Shown here one piece after another: positions 3,720 through 30,579 of a stretch of DNA of 51,907 nt. A program made the position numbers and the translations under genes. This stretch comes from a virus. Every line of letters begins with the position of its first letter. Within the stretch, counting starts at the first letter, position 1. Location of the stretch: IMG/VR virus record IMGVR_UViG_3300017743_000014, positions 1 to 51,907 of that record. The stretch is one strand, 5' to 3'. Under the pieces are notes generated by a model. That model ran no database searches and had not been told where the DNA came from. It saw only the letters and a program-made list of their open reading frames with translations.

Positions 3720-3880
3720 CCGCTGTTGAGATACAACAGTTCGTTGAGAAGTTGATCCGTAGGTGGGAAGAAACGCACACAATCGCTCCTACGGATCACA
3801 TATCAAAATTTCTTATATCAAACGACATTCTTAAATTAGTTAAAAAGGTGAAAGATGCTCAACATAAGAGTCAGAACTGA
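3716..3880 (+). CDS. hypothetical 54-aa protein
   Basis: Begins MTAVEIQQFVEKL at the ATG overlapping the stop of the 19-aa peptide. An in-frame ATG at 3632 would give 82 aa but would run inside the exonuclease gene. Helical and basic toward the C-terminus (ILKLVKKVKDAQHKSQN). Its end overlaps the polymerase start by 26 bases. Its position between proofreader and polymerase hints at a replication accessory role, but no family is recognised. Confidence 0.5.
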   Translation: MTAVEIQQFVEKLIRRWEETHTIAPTDHISKFLISNDILKLVKKVKDAQHKSQN

Positions 3881-6668
3881 ATACTGCTTCCGCAAGGCAT
3901 ACGGACCACTTCAAAAAGTCATAGACTCAATTGATGGGTCAGCCATCGGGATCTGCGACACTGGCACTTGGGGTCATGTGAATTTTGAACATGCCTGCAA
4001 AAAAGTTGACAAAAAGCCTTTGCTTGGGGTTGAGATACCTATAGTTGAAGATGCAACAGAGCGATCAAAGCAACCAGCCAATGACATGGCATTCATAGCT
4101 AAGAACAATGATGGCCTCACAGAGATATATCACCTCGTCACAAAAAGCACAGACAAAGAACATTTTTATTATCATCCTCGTTTAAGTTATGAAGATTTAT
4201 TTGATGTCAGTGAAAATGTAATAATACTCAGCGGGACAAACCCAGATTGGGGATTGTTGCCTTTGACCAAAAAAGACAATCTTTATATTGAGTTGAATCC
4301 AATGAGCACTCGTAAGGCTTTGGAGTTTGCGGACAAAAAAGGATTCAATGTTGTAGCGACTTCAGATAATTTTTACCCAACAGTGCAAGACAAAAAGGCA
4401 TACGAGGTTTTGGTGGGTCGTAACCGAACAGACCGAACAAAGCCAATGCATGTCATGAATGAATGGGAGTGGAGAGACGCAGTGCCGTGGGCACCAGAGT
4501 CAGCCATAGAAAACACCTACAAGATTGCAGAGATGTGTAACGCAGAGTTGCCAACAGCACAAATGGTTTCATTTGATCCAGAAAAGACTTTGCGCAAAAT
4601 GTGCGAGGAAGGTGCACCACCCCGCAACATTGACCTAAATGACCCAGCTTATAAAGCTCGTCTTGACCGAGAGTTGAAGTTGATATCTGACAAAGAGTTT
4701 GAAGATTACTTTTATGTCATCGCTGACATGATCAACTACGCCAAGAAACATATGCTCGTTGGGCCAGCACGAGGATCATCTTCTGGTTCACTGGTTTGCT
4801 ACCTCACTGGCATAACTGACATTGACCCGATTGAGCATGACTTACTGTTTGAGAGATTCATTGATATCACTCGTGAGGACTTGCCCGACATTGATATTGA
4901 CTTTCAGGATGATCGCAGAGAGATGGTGTTTGAGTATCTGAGGGAAAAGTATGGAGCGGAAAAGGTTGCACACCTAGGAACAGTGTCACGCTACAAAGCT
5001 AAAAGCACAATCGCAGAAGTAGCCAAAGAGCTCGGCATACCAGCGTGGGAAGTAAACGATCTCAAAGGTGCAATCATTGAACGTAGCTCTGGCGACTCCC
5101 GTGCAGCATTCTGTATCCTTGATACTTTCAACGAGCTTGATGTGGGTCGGGAAGTGATGCAAAAATATCCGCAGATGAAAGTTGCCGCAGACATGGAGAA
5201 CCATGCACGTCACAATGGTGTTCATGCCGCAGGAATCATAGTGACAGAAAAACCAGTCAGTGAGTATTGCTCTGTTTCAGGTCAGACAGGTGCAGCCCAG
5301 ATAGACAAAAAGGATGCTGAGGATCTCAATCTACTGAAGATTGATGCACTGGGGCTGAGGACTCTTTCAGTTTTGCAAGATGTTCTTGATCAAGTCGGTT
5401 GGACTCGTGATCAGTTGATCAATTACCCTCTTGAGGATGAAGAGGCATTCAAAATATTAAACGACGAGAAGTATGCAGGAATATTTCAGTTTGAAGGCTA
5501 TGCACTGCAGTCAGTGACTAGGCAGATGAAAGTTCACAAGTTTGAGGACATTGCAGCCATCACTGCTTTGGCTCGTCCTGGACCACTCAACTCAGGTGGC
5601 ACAACCCAGTTTATAAAACGCCACACAGGTGCATCGCCTGTTGAGTATCTTCACCCACTGACTGAGACAATAACAAAGGTCACCAATGGGGTTGTTGTTT
5701 ATCAGGAACAAGTGATGACAATAGCCAGAGATGTGGGTAAGCTCTCATGGGAAGATGTATCAACTCTTCGCAAAGCAATGTCAAAGTCATACGGGAAAGA
5801 ATATTTTGATACCTTTTGGGAAAGGTTCAAAGTTGGTGCAGCTGAGAATGACATTGAGGAAGACCAAGCCCAACGCATATGGGACAACATCAACACAATG
5901 GGATCATGGGCATTCAACAGATCACACGCCATCGCATATGGGATGGTCAGCTATTGGTGTTGCGTTCTTAAGAGCAAGTTTCCTCTGGAGTTTGCTGCAG
6001 CATGTTTGCGTAACGTCAAAGATGACGAGCAGGCAGTCAGGCTTTTGCGTGAGGTTGTGCGTGAGGGTTTGGACTACAAGCCATTTGACAAATTCAAGTC
6101 AAATCAAAACTGGTCTGTGCAAGATGGTGCTTTGATAGGTGGTTTGATCGGAATAAAAGGAATCGGTCCAAAAATGGCTGAGGACATCCTTAACAGACGT
6201 GAGATGGCCCAACCTATGACTCCTCGTCAAGAGTCGCTCCTAGACAATGGAGAAACGCCTTACGACGACATATTTGAATGCGAAAGAAGGTTCGGGCATA
6301 TAAAAGCTGACCCAGCCGCACATAACATTGTTTCTGACATAACTGACATAATGGATCTGGATGCTGACAATCCAGGAATGTTTGTGTTCTTCGGGAAGCT
6401 GAAAGAAAAGAATCTGCGTGATATGAATGAGACTGTTAACCTTGCCAAGCGTGGTGGTCGCAGGGTTGATAAAAATAATCTGTGGCTCAATCTGACTTTT
6501 GAGGATGACACTGGCCCAATCATATCAACCATTGATCGTTTCAAATATTCACGCATGGGCAAGCCAATAGTTGAGGATGGCAGGATCGGTGATTGGTATC
6601 TTGTCAAAGGCATGATCAGGCAAGGATTCAGGAAAATTTATGTAGAAAAAATTCGTAAACTTACATAA
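3855..6668 (+). CDS. dnaE: DnaE-type DNA polymerase III alpha subunit
   Basis: 937-aa replicative polymerase of the C family. Residues 1-240 form a PHP-like domain in which the usual HxHxx metal ligands are missing (NIRVRTEY at 3-10). The palm follows: GPARGSSSGS at 303-312, PDIDIDF at 344-350 with D347 and D349 as catalytic aspartates, and KIDALGLRTL carrying the third. A helix-hairpin-helix (GIKGIGPKMAEDIL) lies near residue 770, and an OB-like fold closes the chain. It is shorter than bacterial DnaE (about 1160 aa), lacking most of the tau-binding tail. Start ATG at 3855 follows GGTGAAAG. It is the last gene of its transcription unit before the promoter at 6717. Confidence 0.95.
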   Translation: MLNIRVRTEYCFRKAYGPLQKVIDSIDGSAIGICDTGTWGHVNFEHACKKVDKKPLLGVEIPIVEDATERSKQPANDMAFIAKNNDGLTEIYHLVTKSTDKEHFYYHPRLSYEDLFDVSENVIILSGTNPDWGLLPLTKKDNLYIELNPMSTRKALEFADKKGFNVVATSDNFYPTVQDKKAYEVLVGRNRTDRTKPMHVMNEWEWRDAVPWAPESAIENTYKIAEMCNAELPTAQMVSFDPEKTLRKMCEEGAPPRNIDLNDPAYKARLDRELKLISDKEFEDYFYVIADMINYAKKHMLVGPARGSSSGSLVCYLTGITDIDPIEHDLLFERFIDITREDLPDIDIDFQDDRREMVFEYLREKYGAEKVAHLGTVSRYKAKSTIAEVAKELGIPAWEVNDLKGAIIERSSGDSRAAFCILDTFNELDVGREVMQKYPQMKVAADMENHARHNGVHAAGIIVTEKPVSEYCSVSGQTGAAQIDKKDAEDLNLLKIDALGLRTLSVLQDVLDQVGWTRDQLINYPLEDEEAFKILNDEKYAGIFQFEGYALQSVTRQMKVHKFEDIAAITALARPGPLNSGGTTQFIKRHTGASPVEYLHPLTETITKVTNGVVVYQEQVMTIARDVGKLSWEDVSTLRKAMSKSYGKEYFDTFWERFKVGAAENDIEEDQAQRIWDNINTMGSWAFNRSHAIAYGMVSYWCCVLKSKFPLEFAAACLRNVKDDEQAVRLLREVVREGLDYKPFDKFKSNQNWSVQDGALIGGLIGIKGIGPKMAEDILNRREMAQPMTPRQESLLDNGETPYDDIFECERRFGHIKADPAAHNIVSDITDIMDLDADNPGMFVFFGKLKEKNLRDMNETVNLAKRGGRRVDKNNLWLNLTFEDDTGPIISTIDRFKYSRMGKPIVEDGRIGDWYLVKGMIRQGFRKIYVEKIRKLT

Positions 6669-8702: not shown

Positions 8703-8920
8703 TTAGTTGGCACAATGCTCCCGAGTATTCTTATAAAGGATACATTTATAAACCAGATGTTGATGAATACGATGATGGGGTTCGAAAGGCTTGGCACAAC
8801 ATAGTCAGAAGAGAGAACCCTGATGTTGTTGTCTTTACAACCAACCACTCGCCATACAGATGGATGACAGAAAGTGATTTCAAAGATTTTATAAACAGGA
8901 TGGAAAAAGTGACAGCTTAA
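8699..8920 (+). CDS. hypothetical 73-aa protein
   Basis: Starts by ATGA overlap with the OB-fold gene and ends by TAATG overlap with the helicase, so it is translationally coupled on both sides. The sequence is rich in Tyr, Asp and Trp (YSYKGYIYKPDVDEYDDG) with no signal or membrane segment. No family recognised. Confidence 0.6.
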   Translation: MISWHNAPEYSYKGYIYKPDVDEYDDGVRKAWHNIVRRENPDVVVFTTNHSPYRWMTESDFKDFINRMEKVTA

Positions 8921-10611
8921 TGATAATACAAAAAGCAAAAGGCAAGCACCTCATAGCTAGGGTTGCGCTAGATGGCAACTCAATACAAAAACTTTCCTCC
9001 CTCCCAGGATTTAAAAAGTGGGTCGGGAGGGATTTGCTTTTTGCACCAACTGGTGCCAACATTGAGCACATTCACAAGTTTTGGCCAGACGCACATTGGT
9101 CTGTTGATGCTATGCCTGTGCTTGAAGAATATATTGAGACTCTTCGGGAAGCTGAGCAAAACCGAGAAGACAAAAGCAAGCCTGTTGAAGATCTCGGTGA
9201 CTTCATGTTTAAGACTCGTCCCTTTGATCATCAACGTAAAGCCTTTTATCTTTCCCGAGACAAAGAGTCGTTTGCACTTTTGATGGAGCAAGGCACAGGC
9301 AAAACAAAAGTAGTGCTTGACAATGCGGCATATCTTTACGGAAAAGGCAAGATAACAGCTCTTGTTGTTATAGCTCCCAATGGTGTTCACCGAAACTGGC
9401 TTAGCAAAGAGATACCAGATCATATGCCTGACTGGTGCCCAACAAAGCCAGTTTATTATTACTCAGGCATGACTAAAAAAGAAACAGAAGCCTTTGATGA
9501 GGTTCTGGCTGAAACAGAGATGCTAAAAGTCTTTAGCTTCAATGTTGAGGCTTTTGTGAGCGACAAAGCTACAAACTTCATGAAGAGAGTTCTTTTAAGC
9601 AACGAGGTAATGCTTGTTGTTGATGAAAGTTCCCGCATCAAACGTCCAGGAGCCAAGCGAACAAAGATCATAACTAAATTTTCAAACATGGCTAAATATC
9701 GTCGGATAATGACAGGCACACCAGTGACCAAAGGACCAGAAGACATTTACAGCCAGTTCAAGTTCCTTGATCATCAGATCCTAGGATATGACAGCTTTTA
9801 CTCATTCAGAGCTCGCTATTGCATCATGGGTGGTTTTGAGAACAAACAGATCGTCTCGTATCAAAACATTGATGAGCTAACGAGGAACATTGAAGGTCAT
9901 TCATTCAGAGTTCTTAAAAAAGATTGCCTAGACTTGCCTGAGAAAATATATCAGCGTCACCCTGTTGACCTATCCCCAAAACAACGCAAGCTCTACAATC
10001 AGCTTCGCAAAGACTTCATAGCAGAACTAGAGGGTGAGCAGATTGATGCTCCAGAAGCAATAACTAGGTTGCTCAGGCTTCAGCAGATTGTTTGCGGGTG
10101 GTTCCCAATGGAAGAAGAGGTGAAGCCAATTGATGAAAAGAATCCTCGTTTGCAGGCTCTTTTGGATATTCTTAGCGACATTGAGTGCAAAGTAATCATA
10201 TGGGCACGATTTAAAGCTGATTTAAGGGTCATAGAGCGTGCTCTTGGGGAGTTGGCAGTGGCTTACCACGGAGAGGTGTCAAACGACCAGCGAGCGATCT
10301 CCGTAGAGCGATTTCAGAATGACCCGAAGATACGTTATTTTATAGGTCAGCCGCAGTCGGGTGGAATCGGTTTGACGCTGACAGCTGCAGAGTGTGCCAT
10401 CTATTATTCAAATAGCTTTGATCTTGAGACTCGCCTTCAATCCGAGGACAGGTGCCACCGCATCGGCACAAAGAATAATGTCACTTACATTGATTTGGAA
10501 TCACCAAAAACAATTGACACAAAAATCATCAAAGCTCTGAGAAGCAAAAAGAGCCTAGCTGATATTGTAACAAAAGACCCCATATCATTATTTTTAACAG
10601 ACGAGGACTGA
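8920..10611 (+). CDS. SNF2-type superfamily 2 helicase
   Basis: 563-aa ATP-dependent DNA translocase or helicase. Q-like motif PFDHQ at 101-105, Walker A EQGTGKTK at 123-130, Walker B VVDESSRIK near 230, motif III MTGTPVTKG, and motif VI SEDRCHRIG near 505, the SNF2 (QxxxRxHRIGQ-like) form. The first 90 residues are an extra N-terminal region with a WSVDAMPVLEEYIETL-type segment, probably a HARP-like or accessory domain. It is followed without a gap by a VRR-NUC-like nuclease, a pairing common in phage replication and recombination modules. Confidence 0.92.
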   Translation: MIIQKAKGKHLIARVALDGNSIQKLSSLPGFKKWVGRDLLFAPTGANIEHIHKFWPDAHWSVDAMPVLEEYIETLREAEQNREDKSKPVEDLGDFMFKTRPFDHQRKAFYLSRDKESFALLMEQGTGKTKVVLDNAAYLYGKGKITALVVIAPNGVHRNWLSKEIPDHMPDWCPTKPVYYYSGMTKKETEAFDEVLAETEMLKVFSFNVEAFVSDKATNFMKRVLLSNEVMLVVDESSRIKRPGAKRTKIITKFSNMAKYRRIMTGTPVTKGPEDIYSQFKFLDHQILGYDSFYSFRARYCIMGGFENKQIVSYQNIDELTRNIEGHSFRVLKKDCLDLPEKIYQRHPVDLSPKQRKLYNQLRKDFIAELEGEQIDAPEAITRLLRLQQIVCGWFPMEEEVKPIDEKNPRLQALLDILSDIECKVIIWARFKADLRVIERALGELAVAYHGEVSNDQRAISVERFQNDPKIRYFIGQPQSGGIGLTLTAAECAIYYSNSFDLETRLQSEDRCHRIGTKNNVTYIDLESPKTIDTKIIKALRSKKSLADIVTKDPISLFLTDED

Positions 10612-16934: not shown

Positions 16935-17260
16935 TACATGTTTCCAAGAGCACCCATATTTTTAGGCATGCCACCTGCTTGTTGGGGAGCTGCTTGACGC
17001 TGCATTCCTTTTGATTGCCCTGCGACAGCTTGTACGAGCTCTTGCAACTCTGGCAACAGCTTCATAAGAACTCTGGCAACTTCTGGGGTGATCGCAGAAT
17101 CAAGCATCCTCAGCTCTTCTGGACCCATGTTTGCCAGCCTTGACATAAGAACTGCACGGATGCCGTCTGATGATTTCATTAGGTTGGTGCGAGCTTCAGC
17201 TGGCATTGCTGCCAGAGGATTGGCAGTAGCACCATCCATCTTCATTGGTTCACGAGCCAT
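16934..17260 (-). CDS. hypothetical 108-aa late protein
   Basis: Mostly helical with a Gln/Pro/Gly/Met-rich C-terminal tail (QRQAAPQQAGGMPKNMGAL). It joins its neighbours by stop-start overlaps at both ends (17260 and 16934), so it is co-translated with the virion genes. No family recognised. Confidence 0.6.
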   Translation of the reverse strand: MAREPMKMDGATANPLAAMPAEARTNLMKSSDGIRAVLMSRLANMGPEELRMLDSAITPEVARVLMKLLPELQELVQAVAGQSKGMQRQAAPQQAGGMPKNMGALGNM

Positions 17261-18594
17261 TATTTAATCTCCTTTGGCTTATATAATACAGACCAGTCTT
17301 TGGTCTTTGAAAATGCACCCATGACCCAACATGTTGGCTCTAAAATGCGACGATATACTTTGCCTAAATAATCAGGCTTTTCCCGCTCACCATAAATGTA
17401 AGCTATTTCATTTGCTCTGTGCCCAGCAACATGTTTCCAAAAATTTACAAATTGACCTTTGCGCATCTGGCGTACCATCCACAAAGCCCATAGGTGATAA
17501 CCATTGACATGTTGCGGTGTTAAGTAATCACGAGTAAACCGATAATCAAGAACAACTTGCTTGCGAGTCATTACACCTTGACGACAAAGCTCGTTACATA
17601 TAACTCTGCCACCGAGAACCCCGCCAAGCACGCCACCGACAACTCCACCGAGTCCAGGAAGCAATGCATTTCCGATTGCAGTTCCGATTGCTGATGCGCC
17701 AGCTGACTTGGCTGCTTTCTCGGGATCTTCGCCCATAGCGAGTTGAACACCAAAGTTAACAAGACCAGCACCTGCGGCACCAGTCCAGTTTGCTTTTGCT
17801 GCTTCAGTACCATAAAGTCTATCGCCAACAGTTTCTATATATCCTGGAGTTGATGAAGATGCTGTGATTGCTTCGGATGTTATGTTGCCCTTGCCGTCTG
17901 CTACGGAAACAGAGCCTGACTTATCAACTTTGACTCCTGCTTTGCCTAACTCATCTGCGGTGTAAGAGGTAACATTGTCTCCGAGATTAGTTCCGACTTT
18001 ATCTCCTAGTTTATTATAAATGTCTAGGTTGCCTGTGGCTTCAGCGACATTCCTGTTGGCCAACTCAGAAACAACAATATTTTCTTTTGGCATTGATGCT
18101 ATATTATCAAACGCCAAACCCCTCACTGACGAGACTTCTTGCCCAGGAAGTTTACCGAATGTGCTTCCTACGCCTGAAAGAACTTTACTTCCTGTTCCTC
18201 CTGTCAAGTAAGGATCAAACAGTGCCGCACCAACTTGAGATGCTGCAGCTTGCCCTACTTGTCCAGCTGTGCCGATTGCTACTGCTTTGCCGATGTCTGA
18301 CCAATTAGGAAGTCCTGGAGGTGGCTCTCTGCCTTCTGTTAACTCTCTGTATTCTTCTAGCCTTTGCCTATCAACCAAATCATTAGGGTCATATGTGCGA
18401 GTTCCTGACTGAATGGTTTTGACCCATTCAAAAACAGGCATTGCTCCTGTGCCATAATTTTGCTGTATGTATTCAGCACTCACTGTTGGCGTTTGAGCTA
18501 CATTTTGATAAACACCATATACAACTGGCCTATCACCTTCTTCATCAAGCGTGAGGCCTGTCAGTGCTCCTGGATTATCTGTCACTTGTACCAT
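17260..18594 (-). CDS. virion protein with glycine-zipper segment and GYHLWA C-terminal domain
   Basis: 444 aa. Residues about 300-330 form a Gly-rich hydrophobic stretch (LLPGLGGVVGGVLGGVLGGR), a glycine-zipper-like membrane-active segment. It is followed by a Cys/aromatic-rich C-terminal domain containing VICNELCRQGVMTRKQV, DYRFTRDYLTPQHVNGYHLW and HRANEIAYIYGEREK. The same layout (Gly-rich linker, C-V/I-I start, aromatic helical domain) closes the 593-aa virion protein at 37124. I associate this C-terminal module with many alphaproteobacterial phage proteins. It may insert in the cell envelope during ejection; inference. Confidence 0.55.
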   Translation of the reverse strand: MVQVTDNPGALTGLTLDEEGDRPVVYGVYQNVAQTPTVSAEYIQQNYGTGAMPVFEWVKTIQSGTRTYDPNDLVDRQRLEEYRELTEGREPPPGLPNWSDIGKAVAIGTAGQVGQAAASQVGAALFDPYLTGGTGSKVLSGVGSTFGKLPGQEVSSVRGLAFDNIASMPKENIVVSELANRNVAEATGNLDIYNKLGDKVGTNLGDNVTSYTADELGKAGVKVDKSGSVSVADGKGNITSEAITASSSTPGYIETVGDRLYGTEAAKANWTGAAGAGLVNFGVQLAMGEDPEKAAKSAGASAIGTAIGNALLPGLGGVVGGVLGGVLGGRVICNELCRQGVMTRKQVVLDYRFTRDYLTPQHVNGYHLWALWMVRQMRKGQFVNFWKHVAGHRANEIAYIYGEREKPDYLGKVYRRILEPTCWVMGAFSKTKDWSVLYKPKEIK

Positions 18595-22432: not shown

Positions 22433-25306
22433 TTATTCTCCTATTTTGGTTTCCAATTCAGCGACCTTTGCTGAAAGTTCTTTAACGGCATTTACCAAAT
22501 ACCACGTCATGTTATCTGGGTCAACAGACATGACTCCTGTCGTTTCTGTTCTTACCATGTCTGGAAGAACTTCTGCGATTTCTTGAGCTATAACGCCAAG
22601 CTGTTCTCCTGGTTTGTTGAGGATCGCTTGATTAGAATCAAGTTCTGTTACTTCTCCTGGATCACGATACTTAAAGTTTTTTACTTTAATTTTATTAATC
22701 GCATCAAGACCAGTGCTGTTGTCTATGATATCTTTTTTAAGCCGTCTGTCTGAAGTGGTGGACCAAGAAGAAGAGTTATTACTTTGATACATACCTCCAC
22801 CATGGAGTTGCATGATGCCAGTACGAGACCCTTTGGTGGTGGCGTTGTAGCCGATGCCTATAGAAAACTCATCGCTGGCGGCAGCTGGCTGACTGTAATC
22901 ACCTATTATAGTGTTACCAGTTCCAGTTGTCAGTGAAGTGCTATAATAAGCTGCTTGGAAACCAATTAAAATATTATCTGTTCCAGTAGTAACGTTGTTA
23001 CCAGCACGCTTACCTATACAAGTATTCAAACTGCCTGTTGTTATGCTTACTCCTGCGTCCCGACCAATAAGTGTACATCCATCTACTGTCGTAGCCAAAC
23101 GCCCAGCGTCAATGCCCATACCTACATTGTCTGTGCCTGTGGTAAGGTCAGCAAAGCAGTTTTGGCCCACGGCTGTGTTGTAGCTTCCTGTAGTCAAATC
23201 AGAAAGGCAGAAAATGCCTACACCTGTGTTTTCAGTTGCCGTTGTCATCGCATCCAAAACAAAAGCACCAAGTGCTGTGCTGTCTGTGCCTGTGGTACAA
23301 GATGCAAGAGCCAACTTGCCAAATGCTGTGTTTGTTGATCCTGTGGTGTTTTGATACAAAGCAGCATAACCCATAGCAGTGTTTCCTGCTGCTGTCGTGT
23401 TGGCTTGAAGTGCCTGTTGGCCCACTGCTGTATTATCGTTGCCTGTGGTGGTGTTTTGAAGAGCAAATGTACCCAATCCAGTATTAGATGAGCCTGTTGT
23501 TGTTGTGTTTAGTGCACTCGCACCAAGAGCTACGTTGTTTCCACCAGAAGTTATAGAATATCCTGCATTATCACCAATTATAGTATTAAGGTTGCCTGTG
23601 ACAGCCCCGCCAGCAAGAGCATTATCACCAATAGCAATATTTTGCTGGCCTGTGGTCATTGATGCACCAGCATTATTACCCACACAAACATTTTCACCAT
23701 TACCAGTAGTGATGGCAGAGCCAGCATTGTGACCAACAAGAGTGTTGCTTGGAGAAGTCGTTATTGCATCACCAGCGTTCATGCCGATTACTACGTTGTT
23801 TGATGCTGTAGTATTTGACGCTAAAGCATTATCACCAATTCCTACGTTAGATGCACCAGTAGTATTTGCAATTAATGCACCCTCTCCTACCGCCGTATTT
23901 CCTGCTCCTGTCGTGTTTGAAAACAAAGCACTGTCACCGACTGCCGTATTGTTAGCCGCAGTGGTGTTTCCGCTTAGAGCATTTCTTCCAACGGCTACGT
24001 TGTTTGAGCCTGTTGTGTTTGCATCAAGTGCTTGGGCACCGATAGCAACATTCTGTGCGCCCGTGGTGTTTGCGTATAACGCTTGATACCCGCAAGCGGT
24101 ATTGCTTCCTCCTGTGGTGTTTGTCTCCAGTGCAAGACCACCAACCGCTGTGTTTATTTCGCCAGTGGTGGTTGAGTTCAAAGCAGAGTATCCAATAGCC
24201 GTGTTGTAATCCACACCGCTATCAGTGGCGTTATATGTTTCAAGCGCACCATACCCCATCGCCGTGTTTCGGCCACCAGTGGTGTTTGCAGTCATAGCGT
24301 TGTAACCGATTGCTACGTTTCTATCACTTGAAGTGGCAGCGTCAAGTGACGCATAACCAACAGCTACGTTTCTTGCGCCATTAACATTAGCGTCCATTGA
24401 CGCATAACCGATAGCCGTATTGGAACTTGCTACGGTGTTGTTTTGCAAAGCAGCCCTGCCCACAGCGACATTCTCTTCGCCTGTAGTGTTTGAAGTCATA
24501 GCATTTTGACCGATTGCTGTGTTACTATTTGCCGTAGTATTTGCATCAAGAGCTTGCGCCCCTACAGCTACGTTAAGAGTGCCAGTGGTGTTTGCATCCA
24601 AAGCACGAAAGCCCATCGCCGTATTGTTAGATGCCGTAGTGTTGTTATCTAACGCCCGATGTCCGACTGCTGTATTTGATGCCCCCGTTGTATTTGCTAC
24701 TAGGGCAGACATTCCTACCGCAATATTTTCTGCACCAGATGTATTAGCGGATAAGGCCGCATGACCAATAGCTGTGTTGTTTCCACCAGACAACGAACCA
24801 TCATCCAATGCGGTGTCACCCAATGCCACATTGTTTGTGCCTGTCGGGTAGTTGCCGTCTAGCTTGATTGTGCCGCCGTCTACTGACAAGTTTGTTAAGC
24901 TGTCAACAGCTTCAACAACATTAGTTGCATCGCAATATAAAAACTTCGTTTGGCCATTGGGGATCGTTATCCCTGTGCCACCAGAAGTTTTAACTGTGAT
25001 TGCGTAGCCACCACCTGTATTATTTTTGAATAGGTACAACTTATCAGAACTAGGAACTACAACATTCCTAGCAGCACCTAAAGTTCCTGTTATAATGACA
25101 CAAGCATTACGAGATTCATCACTCGCACCATTGCTTGTTGTCAAGGAATAATTTGCTGAATCGTCGTGAGTTACATTAGCGACTCCTGAGATTGATTGCT
25201 CAATCAAAGTGCCAATGTTAGTATTTGAGATGTTTCCCCATGTTCCTGACTTCTCGCCAGTCGCCATGAGTTCAAAGCGAAGATTGGTTGAGTAAGTACT
25301 AGCCAT
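22433..25306 (-). CDS. tail fibre/spike with 17-aa repeats and S74 intramolecular chaperone
   Basis: 957-aa receptor-binding fibre. Residues 1-157 form an N-terminal attachment and beta region. Residues about 158-810 contain roughly 38 tandem 17-residue units of the form NTAVGxxALxxNTTGxx, a left-handed beta-roll or trimeric beta-helix pattern resembling trimeric autotransporter adhesins. The C-terminal ~110 residues are a peptidase_S74 chaperone: SDRRLKKD at about 852-859 provides the Ser-Asp and Lys used for self-cleavage, and LGVIAQEIAEVLPDMV is the conserved helix. The chaperone trimerises the fibre, then cleaves itself off. Start ATG follows GGGAG. Confidence 0.92.
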   Translation of the reverse strand: MASTYSTNLRFELMATGEKSGTWGNISNTNIGTLIEQSISGVANVTHDDSANYSLTTSNGASDESRNACVIITGTLGAARNVVVPSSDKLYLFKNNTGGGYAITVKTSGGTGITIPNGQTKFLYCDATNVVEAVDSLTNLSVDGGTIKLDGNYPTGTNNVALGDTALDDGSLSGGNNTAIGHAALSANTSGAENIAVGMSALVANTTGASNTAVGHRALDNNTTASNNTAMGFRALDANTTGTLNVAVGAQALDANTTANSNTAIGQNAMTSNTTGEENVAVGRAALQNNTVASSNTAIGYASMDANVNGARNVAVGYASLDAATSSDRNVAIGYNAMTANTTGGRNTAMGYGALETYNATDSGVDYNTAIGYSALNSTTTGEINTAVGGLALETNTTGGSNTACGYQALYANTTGAQNVAIGAQALDANTTGSNNVAVGRNALSGNTTAANNTAVGDSALFSNTTGAGNTAVGEGALIANTTGASNVGIGDNALASNTTASNNVVIGMNAGDAITTSPSNTLVGHNAGSAITTGNGENVCVGNNAGASMTTGQQNIAIGDNALAGGAVTGNLNTIIGDNAGYSITSGGNNVALGASALNTTTTGSSNTGLGTFALQNTTTGNDNTAVGQQALQANTTAAGNTAMGYAALYQNTTGSTNTAFGKLALASCTTGTDSTALGAFVLDAMTTATENTGVGIFCLSDLTTGSYNTAVGQNCFADLTTGTDNVGMGIDAGRLATTVDGCTLIGRDAGVSITTGSLNTCIGKRAGNNVTTGTDNILIGFQAAYYSTSLTTGTGNTIIGDYSQPAAASDEFSIGIGYNATTKGSRTGIMQLHGGGMYQSNNSSSWSTTSDRRLKKDIIDNSTGLDAINKIKVKNFKYRDPGEVTELDSNQAILNKPGEQLGVIAQEIAEVLPDMVRTETTGVMSVDPDNMTWYLVNAVKELSAKVAELETKIGE
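22880..24835 (-). repeat. tandem 51-bp repeats inside the tail-fibre gene
   Basis: About 38 units of 51 bp encode the 17-aa fibre repeats. Units differ at third codon positions but keep the NTAVG...AL...NTTG core. Some neighbours vary by an inserted residue or a longer unit (for example the one with ETYNATDSGVD). Such arrays can gain or lose units by recombination and would change fibre length. The opposite strand shows long spurious open frames for the same reason. Confidence 0.9.
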
Positions 25307-25321
25307 GGTTTATAATCTCCC

Positions 25322-25738
25322 TTAGTCTATCCGTATGATTGCGCTTGTCCCAGCTGCAGGGAAAACAATTTTGAAAGTTCCTGAGGAAACTGTGAAATCT
25401 CCACCAAAGTCAAGAACAGCTATCGCCTTGTCACTAGCAGAGCTGTTATAAACTAAAGCACCCCTAGCAGTAAATGAAGCAGAAGTCCAAGTTGGGTCGT
25501 CTGCGTCAAAATAAGCAGTTGTACCAGAAGTTGCTACAACTCTGTTTGTAAGAGTTTCTCCGCCAGCACTGTAACCAGAACCGCTGACTTCATTGCTTGT
25601 GCTGTATGCTGTTGTTGTTGCACCCAAAGAAGCAGAGCTTGTAAAAAGTGCAATCTTAATGGTGTCTGCTACTAGGTCGTGAACTTCGTCCAAGATCTCT
25701 GCCTTGAATGATGTACACATTGCTTGTGATATCGCCAT
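25322..25738 (-). CDS. virion protein of the 'MAISQAMCTSFK' family
   Basis: 138 aa. Begins MAISQAMCTSFKAEILDEVH, then IKIALFTSSASLGATTTAYS and SGSGYSAGGETL. This opening and the GY-x-AGG motif recur in small structural proteins beside tail genes of many marine podoviruses. Beta-rich. Perhaps a tail or fibre-base component. The role is inferred from context. Confidence 0.65.
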   Translation of the reverse strand: MAISQAMCTSFKAEILDEVHDLVADTIKIALFTSSASLGATTTAYSTSNEVSGSGYSAGGETLTNRVVATSGTTAYFDADDPTWTSASFTARGALVYNSSASDKAIAVLDFGGDFTVSSGTFKIVFPAAGTSAIIRID

Positions 25739-26364
25739 TATATACCTCCATTGTATTCAGCTGTGTAGTTCCGAGCCATCTCTTGCTGGAACAGTTGAAC
25801 AGCTTCATCAAACTGCCCCTTGTATAAGTTTAGCGTTTCTGATGCTTTAAGAAAAGCAGAACTTTCATAAAGTGCTGCAGAAAGCAAAACATTTTCTGCA
25901 TTGTCACCGACCCAACTGTTTGAGTTTGTTGCGGAAAGACCAGTTTCTGGTGCTATTATATCAGCTTCATAAGAATAAGTTGCATCTGGCGTAGGAGCCA
26001 CAGTTATTGTTGTTCCTGCTATTGCGGAGGAATCTGTGCTATAAACTTCTGGAGTTCCTTGTGTCGCTGGATTTGGGAAATAATCCCTTAAATAAGAGTC
26101 GATCCTGTGATCTAAAAAAATAAGATTGTTTGAATTTGTTATTGATACTTGACGAATCATCCTAACGCTTGGTATTGTGTATGCTGCTGTGCCTATGACC
26201 ATGTTTCCTGTTGCAGATGACCTATAACAAGGCAAGCTTGGCAATCGCTGAAAGATCATCTCTTCAGCTTGAGATATTATTGTATCTATTGAATTAGAAA
26301 ACTCTGTTGAGTCGTCTTCCATGAAATCTTTAATGTTTTGAACTAATGCTGTATAATTCATCAT
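25738..26364 (-). CDS. head-tail adaptor-like protein (first of two)
   Basis: 208 aa with a helical N-terminus (LVQNIKDFMEDDSTEFSNSI), AEEMIFQRLP, a beta middle, and a C-terminal ALYESSAFLKASETLNLYKG helix. This layout (AE-x-I-x-R-L, then P..d...Y..dI) matches phage adaptor/gp10-type proteins that bridge portal and tail. A second, differently patterned adaptor lies at 27912. Overlaps neighbours by one to four bases. Confidence 0.62.
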   Translation of the reverse strand: MMNYTALVQNIKDFMEDDSTEFSNSIDTIISQAEEMIFQRLPSLPCYRSSATGNMVIGTAAYTIPSVRMIRQVSITNSNNLIFLDHRIDSYLRDYFPNPATQGTPEVYSTDSSAIAGTTITVAPTPDATYSYEADIIAPETGLSATNSNSWVGDNAENVLLSAALYESSAFLKASETLNLYKGQFDEAVQLFQQEMARNYTAEYNGGI

Positions 26365-27908
26365 TCACCCCATGCACCTGCACCCCATGCACCTTGACCC
26401 CAAGCAGCATCAACTTCGACTGAGAGAGTTCCAATAGCACCTGTTCCTGCGAGTCCTGTTTCAATAGCTTCACTAACTGCCTCTTCTGTTCCAACATTTC
26501 CTACTCCAGCTATACCTGATATTCCTGTAACAATCAATTGAATGTTGCCACTTCCTGATAAGCCAAAGCCTTCTACACTTCCTGTTGCAGCAACTGATGA
26601 AGCTATAGCAAACCTAGATATCTCTATGCTACTTATTGTTCCTGTGTTTGCTGTTGCCTCAACACCTGCATTTGTTGGGGTGCTGACCTCTGGGACTTCT
26701 GTTCCTGTTGTGCCTGTGCCTATTGCACTTGATGGCTGGGCAGAGAGTATTATGTTGGTGCCTGATTCAGTTACAGCTGGTGTATTAAGTTGACCACCCA
26801 TGCCAGAGTGTGCTGTGCAATAATAGTAAAGTGTCGGTGCACTTGATGCCACAGTTATCTCTGTATATGCCCCTGCACTTCCTGGAGTGCCATTTGTCGT
26901 AACACCTGTTGTATATTCTGAACCGCCACTATGCGACCCACCAGAGGTTGTGCTGAATCTTAATGGATGCCCAGAGTTGGTGCCATCAGACTGATCAAAC
27001 CTGTATGTTGTTCCTTCTGTAAGGCTTATTGTTGGAGCAGGACCACCAGTGTCAATGTAATATTTATTGCCAGAACCAGGATTGGATACTGTTATGGCCA
27101 GAGATATGGTTCCTGCGGCTGGGGTGTAAGATGTGCCACCCATGCCAGAGTGATTTGTACAATAATAATATAAAGTTGGTGCTGAGCCAGCAACCACTAT
27201 CTGAGTGTATGCTCCTGCTGATCCTGGAGTTCCAACTGTTGTGACTCCAGTTGTATACTCTGACCCACCGCTGTGAGAGCCACCAGAAGTTGTTGAGAAT
27301 CTCAGAGGATGCCCAGAATTAGTAGCATTAGACTGATCGAACCTGTAGGTCTTGCCTTCTTGTAAATAAAGCTGTTGTTGCTGAACTGAATCAATGTAAT
27401 ACTTGTTCCCACTTCCAGGATTTGCTACAGTTATTGCGTAATCAACATACTCAATAGCATGCAAGCTTCCGACATCACCAGTGCCTGCTACGCCTGTTAC
27501 TTGTGCATCAAGAGTTATAAAGAGACTTATTGTCCCGACTGCCCCTGATCCTGCGACTCCTGTTACTGTCAGATTAGGTACATCTAAATTTATTTGGGCA
27601 TAGCCTATTTCTGAAAAAGCTGGGACACCTATTGGTGGCCTTTGTGTTATTGGGATGAAAGGATCAAAATTGAATCCTATTTTGACTTCTGCATTTTCAG
27701 GGTCATTATCAGGCCTAGGATTAAAAAGAGCAGTGGCATCAACAACATTCCTTGGTGGCGTAAGTTGAGGATGTTTCGGTTCATAATCCTCAGGCTCAAC
27801 ACGCAAGCCATCCCAAGTCGTTTTAAGAGAGGTGTATGGGACTCTGAATCCAGAGCGATCGCCTATCGCTACAGACTTTTTCCCTCTTGCTCTCCTAACT
27901 CCTGCCAT
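26361..27908 (-). CDS. virion protein with two cupredoxin-like domains
   Basis: 515 aa. A basic N-terminus and Pro-rich linker (1-105) are followed by beta repeats (VTGVAGSGAVGTISL, VTGVAGTGDVGSLH). Two near-identical ~107-aa domains follow at residues 158-264 and 271-378. Each has GNKYYID, TYRFDQS, SGHPLRFSTTSGG and YYYCxxHSGMGG. The residues H200/C250/H253/M256 and H314/C364/H367/M370 form a His-Cys-His-Met set like a type-1 copper site, with C-x2-H-x2-M spacing. The C-terminus adds more GxAGxGxVGT repeats and ends AWGQGAWGAGAWGE. It is encoded between two adaptor genes, so it is likely a surface or tail protein. Copper binding is inferred. Confidence 0.7.
   Translation of the reverse strand: MAGVRRARGKKSVAIGDRSGFRVPYTSLKTTWDGLRVEPEDYEPKHPQLTPPRNVVDATALFNPRPDNDPENAEVKIGFNFDPFIPITQRPPIGVPAFSEIGYAQINLDVPNLTVTGVAGSGAVGTISLFITLDAQVTGVAGTGDVGSLHAIEYVDYAITVANPGSGNKYYIDSVQQQQLYLQEGKTYRFDQSNATNSGHPLRFSTTSGGSHSGGSEYTTGVTTVGTPGSAGAYTQIVVAGSAPTLYYYCTNHSGMGGTSYTPAAGTISLAITVSNPGSGNKYYIDTGGPAPTISLTEGTTYRFDQSDGTNSGHPLRFSTTSGGSHSGGSEYTTGVTTNGTPGSAGAYTEITVASSAPTLYYYCTAHSGMGGQLNTPAVTESGTNIILSAQPSSAIGTGTTGTEVPEVSTPTNAGVEATANTGTISSIEISRFAIASSVAATGSVEGFGLSGSGNIQLIVTGISGIAGVGNVGTEEAVSEAIETGLAGTGAIGTLSVEVDAAWGQGAWGAGAWGE
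26775..27098 (-). repeat. second copy of duplicated cupredoxin-like domain
   Basis: Encodes residues about 271-378 of the 515-aa protein. It is strongly similar at DNA level to 27117-27437 (for example GGATGCCCAGAGTTGGT versus GGATGCCCAGAATTAGT), pointing to an in-gene duplication with a 114-codon period. Confidence 0.8.
27117..27437 (-). repeat. first copy of duplicated cupredoxin-like domain
   Basis: Encodes residues about 158-264 of the 515-aa protein; partner of 26775-27098. Differences cluster at the edge strand (DSVQQQQLYLQEG versus DTGGPAPTISLTEG), while the metal-ligand segments are conserved. Confidence 0.8.
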
Positions 27909-27911
27909 TAT

Positions 27912-28592
27912 TTATCCTAAATTCATACCTGTTGGACGAATACGAAGTGTCACACCATCATTATCAGCTGCAGCTGCATAACTGAATGTTTGCTCATAAA
28001 CTTGATTCATTAATGTAAATTTGTCTGGCATATACTTCATAGCCAGCTTGCTAGCTAGGCCAGCACAAATGCAATCGCTCCATCTGTAAGGAACATCAGC
28101 ATCTTGATTTGAAGCATCTACATCTTCAAGCTGATTTATTGACCAATAAACAAGACTGTAATCATTGCTGTCAGGAACCTGCCAAGTGTAAAGAACAGGT
28201 ATGTACTGCTTGTCAAGCATGTACTGGCTAGGCCTACCTGAAGAAGTTTTGTCTGGAAGTTGATTGTATTCTGATATGCTTATTCTCTGAACTACTGTGT
28301 CAGTTGTAGAACCACCAACAGTTTCCCTGATTACAACATCAATTAAATCAATCGTGCCTGCTGGCAAAGCATAAGATGATGTTCCTTGAGTCAGTGCAAG
28401 AGTATTGTTTTGAACTGCCCAGTAGTTTATTCCTCTGTTTGCCCACTCACTAAATAAAAGATTTAAGCTCCTGCGAGCTGCTTTTGCATGATATCCTGTC
28501 AGGGTCTGAGAGTCCATGCCGATCCTCTCATAAGACTCGGCAATGATTTCTTCAACATTTGGCCTGAAAGCCACTGTGCCTGAAGTAGCCAT
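27912..28592 (-). CDS. head-tail adaptor / P22 gp4-like tail accessory protein
   Basis: 226 aa. Contains AARRSLNLLFSEWANRGINY, LTQGTSSYALPAGTIDLIDV, ISISEYNQLPDKTSSGRPSQ, and LASKLAMKYMPDKF. These blocks are the signature of a common podovirus head-to-tail connector family comparable to P22 gp4. It binds below the portal and completes DNA packaging. Its start follows GGAGG and it sits after a hairpin at 28612. Confidence 0.8.
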   Translation of the reverse strand: MATSGTVAFRPNVEEIIAESYERIGMDSQTLTGYHAKAARRSLNLLFSEWANRGINYWAVQNNTLALTQGTSSYALPAGTIDLIDVVIRETVGGSTTDTVVQRISISEYNQLPDKTSSGRPSQYMLDKQYIPVLYTWQVPDSNDYSLVYWSINQLEDVDASNQDADVPYRWSDCICAGLASKLAMKYMPDKFTLMNQVYEQTFSYAAAADNDGVTLRIRPTGMNLG

Positions 28593-29670: not shown

Positions 29671-30579
29671 TTAAGCTCCTTCAGAACCGAAGATGCCACG
29701 CCAGTCAGTGAACCCGAACGAATAACGCTCACGCACCTTATAACGTACATTGCCAGTTTCAAAGTCGCCCTCTACACCTTTTTTAAGAGGTGAACGTTGG
29801 AAGTGCTTAAGACCATCAGGAACATCCGTCATAATGTAGAATGCATCTGAGTCAGAAAGACGACGCATCACGTGATAACCTTGTGGCAGATAACCGCCAT
29901 TACGGATCGCATTGATGTCGTTGTCAGCAGTCCCTGTGCGTAGCTGAGACTCAAGCAGACGCTCTGCAACAAAGCTGTATGCTGTCGGGATGACAAGCAT
30001 TGTGCCTTGAGCAGCAATCCGGAGACCTCGGTCATCCTTCATGTCTGCGATTTGAATCAGCATCTGCTCCAGAGAAGTTTCTGAAAGGTCTGCCGCAGTT
30101 GCCAAAGTGTTTGACTGGTTGCCTGAACGAGTCGGGTGATCAGTCGCACACAAAGTTTTGCCATCACCACCAGTTACGCCTGAACCGCTAAAAGCATTGT
30201 TCAGAACATTAGCACCTTTGATTTCCTTTGTGGAAGCCAGTGAGCGTGCTAGTGCTTTTGTGTAACGAGCTGCAATAGATCCATAGAGACCATCTTCTTC
30301 AGCTTCTTCTGTAATGCTGAAAGCAAGAGCAATTGTCTCATGTTGATAGCGAGAGGTAAAACCTTGACTCGCTGCATCATAAGATATCGCTGCACCTTCA
30401 TTTTTTACAGGAGCATTGCCGAAGCCTTCCAAAAGGACATCTTCTTCAAATGCCTTCTGAGAGGTGTTGGTATCAAAGACTGACTGCCACTCTGGTGGAT
30501 ATCGGTCGTACTCTAAGCCAAAGAGGGTGTTCAGTCCTGGCTCGAGCATTTTCGCAAATTGCGCTCTATTCATTGCCAT
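29671..30579 (-). CDS. major capsid protein, HK97 fold (Mu gpT-like)
   Basis: 302 aa. Features of the HK97-fold group with Mu-like capsids: N-terminal AKMLEPGLNTLFGLEY, the E-loop/spine region (YQHETIALAFSITEEAEEDG), CATDHPTRSGNQSNTL, and C-terminal TDVPDGLKHFQRSPL with FETGNVRYKVRERYSFGFTD. It builds the icosahedral head. GGAGGG precedes the ATG. It lies between a 183-aa structural gene and a decoration gene, with scaffold further upstream. Confidence 0.9.
   Translation of the reverse strand: MAMNRAQFAKMLEPGLNTLFGLEYDRYPPEWQSVFDTNTSQKAFEEDVLLEGFGNAPVKNEGAAISYDAASQGFTSRYQHETIALAFSITEEAEEDGLYGSIAARYTKALARSLASTKEIKGANVLNNAFSGSGVTGGDGKTLCATDHPTRSGNQSNTLATAADLSETSLEQMLIQIADMKDDRGLRIAAQGTMLVIPTAYSFVAERLLESQLRTGTADNDINAIRNGGYLPQGYHVMRRLSDSDAFYIMTDVPDGLKHFQRSPLKKGVEGDFETGNVRYKVRERYSFGFTDWRGIFGSEGA

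Follow-up and report, generated by a model that had tools for sequence, protein, structure and literature searches.

The 515-residue protein described here carries two tandem domains which are predicted to be cupredoxins and which hold between them two complete type 1 copper ligand sets (His-Cys-His-Met). The fold of the second domain is well supported by its model, as is, from comparison of its relatives, the retention of the four ligands as a set, and each domain is likely to bind one copper ion. In our view the two domains form a displayed attachment or decoration module whose type 1 site binds copper, a reading to which we assign a probability of roughly 0.55. The protein is encoded in the window, by which we mean the whole 51,907-nucleotide stretch of viral DNA that was analysed (IMG/VR record IMGVR_UViG_3300017743_000014). 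The relevant features are as follows.

26361..27908, minus strand: gene for the 515-residue protein (N-terminal module, Gly-rich repeats, two cupredoxin domains, Gly-rich repeats, WGxGxWG tail)
27639..27908, minus strand: conserved N-terminal module, residues 1–90, overlapped at residues 7–68 by a match to PHROG 28581
27117..27437, minus strand: predicted cupredoxin domain 1, residues 158–264
H200 27309–27311, C250 27159–27161, H253 27150–27152, M256 27141–27143, minus strand: ligand codons of domain 1
26775..27095, minus strand: predicted cupredoxin domain 2, residues 272–378, with an AlphaFold2 model and fold matches in the PDB
H314 26967–26969, C364 26817–26819, H367 26808–26810, M370 26799–26801, minus strand: ligand codons of domain 2
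26364..26772, minus strand: C-terminal Gly-rich repeat region and WGQGAWGAGAWGE tail, modelled at low confidence
27912..28592, minus strand: upstream neighbour, SU10-type head–tail adaptor (Pfam PF24175 SU10_adaptor, E 4e-11)
25738..26364, minus strand: downstream neighbour, second SU10-type head–tail adaptor (Pfam PF24175 SU10_adaptor, E 6e-19)

A self-comparison of the protein shows one peak only, at an offset of 114 (103 identities; next best 55). The two repeats, at about residues 158–264 and 272–378 (about 105–107 residues each), share 79% identity in a gapped protein alignment. Cys250 and Cys364 are the only cysteines in the protein and Met1, Met256 and Met370 the only methionines; His200, His253, His314 and His367 complete both ligand sets, and the residues and the 114-codon offset are as an earlier note on this DNA had given them. 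The DNA of the two repeats is 68% identical, with third codon positions at 47%, which argues that the duplication is old and against an error of assembly. Each repeat is, in most orthologues with two domains, nearest to its same-position counterpart, which suggests that the duplication predates that orthologue lineage.

Domain 2 (residues 265–384) was modelled using AlphaFold2 with an alignment of 42 natural relatives from viral contigs. The domain alone has a mean pLDDT of 90 and a pTM of 0.83, and the highest ranked PDB structures in a Foldseek search with this model are cupredoxins (multicopper oxidases/laccases, rusticyanin, amicyanin and plastocyanin), with TM scores of up to 0.60 for rusticyanin. 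The Foldseek E values are modest (best 1.3e-3), yet nearly the whole of the top list consists of cupredoxins, the one other protein among the top matches being a semaphorin at rank 34. Superposition using VIA-align gave a Z score of 9.6 over 104 residues (r.m.s.d. 2.9) for the first of the three domains in the Hyphomicrobium copper nitrite reductase 2dv6 and 8.3 for rusticyanin. The 2dv6 domain, which is the best structural match, is likewise a cupredoxin unit within a larger polypeptide, but it shares 15% identity with the phage domain and belongs to a nitrite reductase with further copper domains and enzyme activity. In the domain 2 model the cysteine ends strand 97–101 and the methionine just precedes strand 108–112. 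The full-length model has the same strand order in both repeats and is of low confidence elsewhere (mean pLDDT 55).

A search of the PDB with the single sequence gave no match. Profiles did give matches, headed by Cu nitrite reductases, plastocyanins and amicyanin (E 0.002–0.04), and in these alignments the four phage residues (His, Cys, His and Met) fall on the copper ligands of plastocyanin. No Pfam family scores over its cut-off across the domain; Copper-bind (PF00127) reaches 16.5 bits against a cut-off of 21.2 (E 0.012, whole protein), and a search of NCBIfam gave no match. The phage domain has the fold and ligand order (H ... C-H-M) of amicyanin and plastocyanin in common with these proteins, but lies below the PF00127 cut-off, is present in tandem and is part of a phage structural protein in which we noticed no export signal. 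The Greek-key β-sandwich of the model resembles those of solved cupredoxins, and the cupredoxin-like fold anticipated by the earlier note, which had suggested a comparison with plastocyanin, is borne out by it; plastocyanin is itself among the matches. The same model also matches β-sandwich proteins of a pithovirus and a marseillevirus in BFVD (A0A481Z6J5 and A0A481YVH3; E about 1e-5 to 4e-5).

Type 1 copper sites consist of a His2-Cys-Met set on a cupredoxin fold, in which a separate upstream histidine is combined with a Cys-His-Met loop, and the C-x2-H-x2-M spacing found here is that of amicyanin. Both elements, the upstream histidine and the conserved loop before the last strand, are present in the phage domain. 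Since some of the search seeds carry the ligands, the profile was rebuilt with the four ligand columns masked and the search was repeated. It returned H-C-H-M in 264 of 266 unique complete copies, the other two having N-S-N-L; when more phage records were added this became 273 of 276, the exceptions being two copies with N-S-N-L and one with D-A-T-M. Copies recruited without any ligand-bearing seed word agree (104 of 112, the remainder being truncated or having lost the set), and we reject recruitment bias as the source of the count. The earlier suggestion of a type 1-like ligand set is thus upheld. It had also drawn a likeness to cytochrome-oxidase subunit 2, which does not hold: a CuA centre is bridged by two cysteines, and a site of this kind is excluded by the single cysteine of each domain.

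Several observations indicate that the ligand set is maintained by selection. The four ligand columns are within the six most conserved of 100, and H-C-H-M is kept across sequences which are less than 40% identical. The codons of the ligand His, Cys and His are about evenly split between synonyms (145/131, 115/160 and 143/132, respectively), which suggests that the amino acids are held by selection and not by recent ancestry. The exceptions among the 276 complete copies lose three or four ligands, and single-ligand loss is found in none. In two orthologues of the window gene (L199 and L200) domain 1 is without all four ligands while the fold residues are kept; domain 2 retains the set in L199 and is cut by the contig end in L200. 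The second copy in S-RIM44, which has Y and then S-N-F at the ligand positions, and the single domain of P-SS2 (D-A-T-M, three of four ligands lost) look like further losses of the set. Residues which are lost and kept together in this way behave like metal ligands.

The P-SS2 domain is encoded by a stand-alone single-domain gene of this siphovirus (ORF080; L364:2980–3318), and mass spectrometry of purified virions detected its product from an average of nine peptides (PMC2784084). As the site has been lost in this protein, the fold alone can be part of a virion. This observation, together with the copies in L199, L200 and S-RIM44 that are without the ligand set and a 515-residue protein which consists of many repeats and little besides, favours a second interpretation, in which the sandwich serves only as a scaffold for adhesion or decoration, like phage Ig-like domains, while conservation of the four residues reflects packing or the binding of a different metal, for instance zinc, and copper has no part. 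The near-universal retention of the ligands across divergent copies and their loss as a set argue against it, as does the general knowledge that His2-Cys-Met on a cupredoxin fold is the type 1 copper set. We regard a purely structural role as possible, if on the whole unlikely, and prefer the copper-binding module.

The location of the gene bears on where such a module would be found. Both flanking genes score over the Pfam SU10_adaptor cut-off, confirming the earlier placement of a gene for a protein with possible copper centres between head–tail adaptor genes, and a capsid protein gene is nearby (29671–30579). This order, with the orthologue of the 515-residue protein between both adaptor genes, is kept in most of the related viral contigs that have both. 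The gene thus lies among head–tail genes, as a virion protein of the neck/tail module would, and judging from this setting its product is most likely a component of the virion. The C-terminal Gly-rich repeat region may be a stalk.

The cupredoxin domains are an optional part of this gene. Orthologues were fetched with the N-terminal 84 residues alone, and the closest 80 loci, of which 68 are complete, were compared; the proportions that follow apply to near relatives only. One or two cupredoxin domains are present in 32 of the 68 complete near orthologues and none in the other 36, which consist of the N-terminal module, 'GVAGTGAIGT'-like repeats and the 'WGxGxWG' tail. Protein gp53 of the cultured Roseobacter phage CRP-902 has the N-terminal module, repeats, tail and neighbours of the window gene but differs in the absence of the cupredoxin domains. 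The domain is dispensable, because it is absent from about half of the close orthologues and from CRP-902. Copper is not mentioned in the paper describing CRP-901 and CRP-902. In many homologues the N-terminal module contains a zinc ribbon-like CxxC ... CPxC pattern (L206, L067, L369 and L389; e.g. CDRCGFEYKLHELREEWNNLKTCPSCFEPK), whereas none of these cysteines is present at 27770–27890 of the window (GDRSG ... EPED).

A scan of viral contigs with domain 2 gave at least 597 confirmed relatives. The earlier note had thought a copper-type domain unusual in a phage particle; on the contrary, 131 phage records match the form of the domain found in the window and 330 match a gp9 baseplate form, two counts which overlap, and the domain is a widespread module of marine phages. 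The 330 are almost all from Synechococcus and Prochlorococcus phages. In PHROGs the domain is found inside families annotated as tail fibre and as 'baseplate wedge tail fiber protein connector' (E down to 5e-36). Tail-fibre carriers include those of the Pelagibacter phages HTVC028P and Baldr and the Methylophilales phage Melnitz. The gp9-type connectors of T4-like cyanophages (e.g. S-ShM2 and Syn9) have this domain as their C-terminal part, and every copy read contains the ligand set; the connectors differ from the window protein in being another carrier at another site on the particle, annotated there without a cupredoxin label. In S-TIM5 the domain is part of a virion protein whose gene is the second one past that for the portal. 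Another relative, S-SCSM1_231, carries a virion protein annotation, and the virion proteome of its phage has been measured (PMC9602691). In phage 023Pt_psg01 (L094:7983–9080) an SU10-like head–tail adaptor begins with the cupredoxin domain and is followed by a gene orthologous to the part of the window gene that encodes the N-terminal module, an arrangement which suggests that the domain has moved between neighbouring genes.

Among 84,980 genomes only 13 loci were found, mostly in marine metagenome-assembled genome contigs, and a search of plasmids found none. These genomes and plasmids do not provide a cellular source of the domain, although a more distant one may exist. The variety of virion genes that carry the domain, combined with the small number of cellular loci, indicates an exchangeable virion module of marine tailed phages, and the sequences show it to be mobile, recurring in the tail fibres, baseplate connectors and neck proteins of different phages of this kind. 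In the open-access literature searched we found no description of a phage virion cupredoxin family with intact type 1 ligands, and as far as this search shows the widespread family reported here is undescribed. The cupredoxin fold itself and metal sites on phage fibres are already known. The latter include the HxH iron sites in the tail fibres T4 gp37 and that of Alteromonas phage R22Y, on which an iron hypothesis for attachment is based (PMC11705849). Like the phage domain these place proposed metal ligands on a structure used in attachment (PMC11705849), but the HxH sites are paired histidines binding iron in a trimeric fibre, in contrast to the cupredoxin with a Cys-His-Met loop described here.

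The copper-binding module that we favour might operate as follows. The N-terminal module and the Gly-rich repeats would display the two inserted cupredoxin domains from the virion, each domain holding one copper ion, and this ion would keep in place the loops at one of the ends of the β-sandwich. Phages assemble in the cytoplasm, which contains little free copper, and for this reason the ion would be acquired following lysis or at a cell surface and not during assembly. Less certainly, the module would be an external one that makes contact through the end fixed by copper; both its exposure and its part in host contact are suggested by the nature of the carrier proteins. The module would be swapped between phages like other fibre domains. 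A broader proposal, that marine tailed phages, many T4-like cyanophages among them, have type 1 copper centres as a standard exchangeable module of their particles and use the copper in host contact, for example by showing it to a copper receptor, seems to us distinctly unlikely.

A more specific form of host contact is a copper 'Trojan horse', in which the loaded domain would be recognised by an outer-membrane copper receptor of the host and so aid adsorption. We know of no receptor for any of these carrier phages. The identity of the carriers as tail fibres, baseplate proteins and neck proteins is consistent with such recognition, and the iron hypothesis that rests on the HxH tail-fibre sites is analogous (PMC11705849). 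Azurin, a cupredoxin, has been reported to bind the TonB-dependent copper receptor OprC (PMC6907878), but the azurin–OprC complex was not reproduced using native OprC (PMC8610252). We consider such a Trojan horse improbable. A redox role for the domains, either as electron carriers or as scavengers of oxidants on the surface of virions in sunlit water, is very improbable: type 1 sites are electron carriers and the hosts Synechococcus, Prochlorococcus and Pelagibacter live in surface seawater, but the neighbouring genes examined include no redox partner or second metal centre and the data give no call for electron transfer.

If copper is held, the virions of abundant ocean viruses would be copper proteins, the hosts concerned being Synechococcus, Prochlorococcus, Pelagibacter, Methylophilales and, through the kinship of this phage, probably roseobacters. 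Copper would then join a debate on metals in phage attachment that has so far centred on iron, and virus particles would be a possible pool of copper ligands in seawater. The assignment provides many proteins named tail fibre, baseplate connector or hypothetical with a fold that can be recognised and a site that can be tested, and since a single domain of about 110 residues is sufficient the copper question is cheap to test.

Other genes of the window provide some further observations. The 957-residue protein encoded at 22433–25306 contains NTAxGxxAL repeats of about 20 residues and ends in a Peptidase_S74 chaperone domain; it is a tail spike or fibre with a self-cleaving tip. A weak match to a tail tape measure protein (17260–18594; E 2e-6) contrasts with the head–tail adaptors, which are of the type found in the podovirus SU10. 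At 3855–6668 and 8920–10611 there are a DNA polymerase III α-like gene with a PHP domain and an SNF2-type helicase. The related CRP-901-type phages have been described as being without a DNA polymerase gene.
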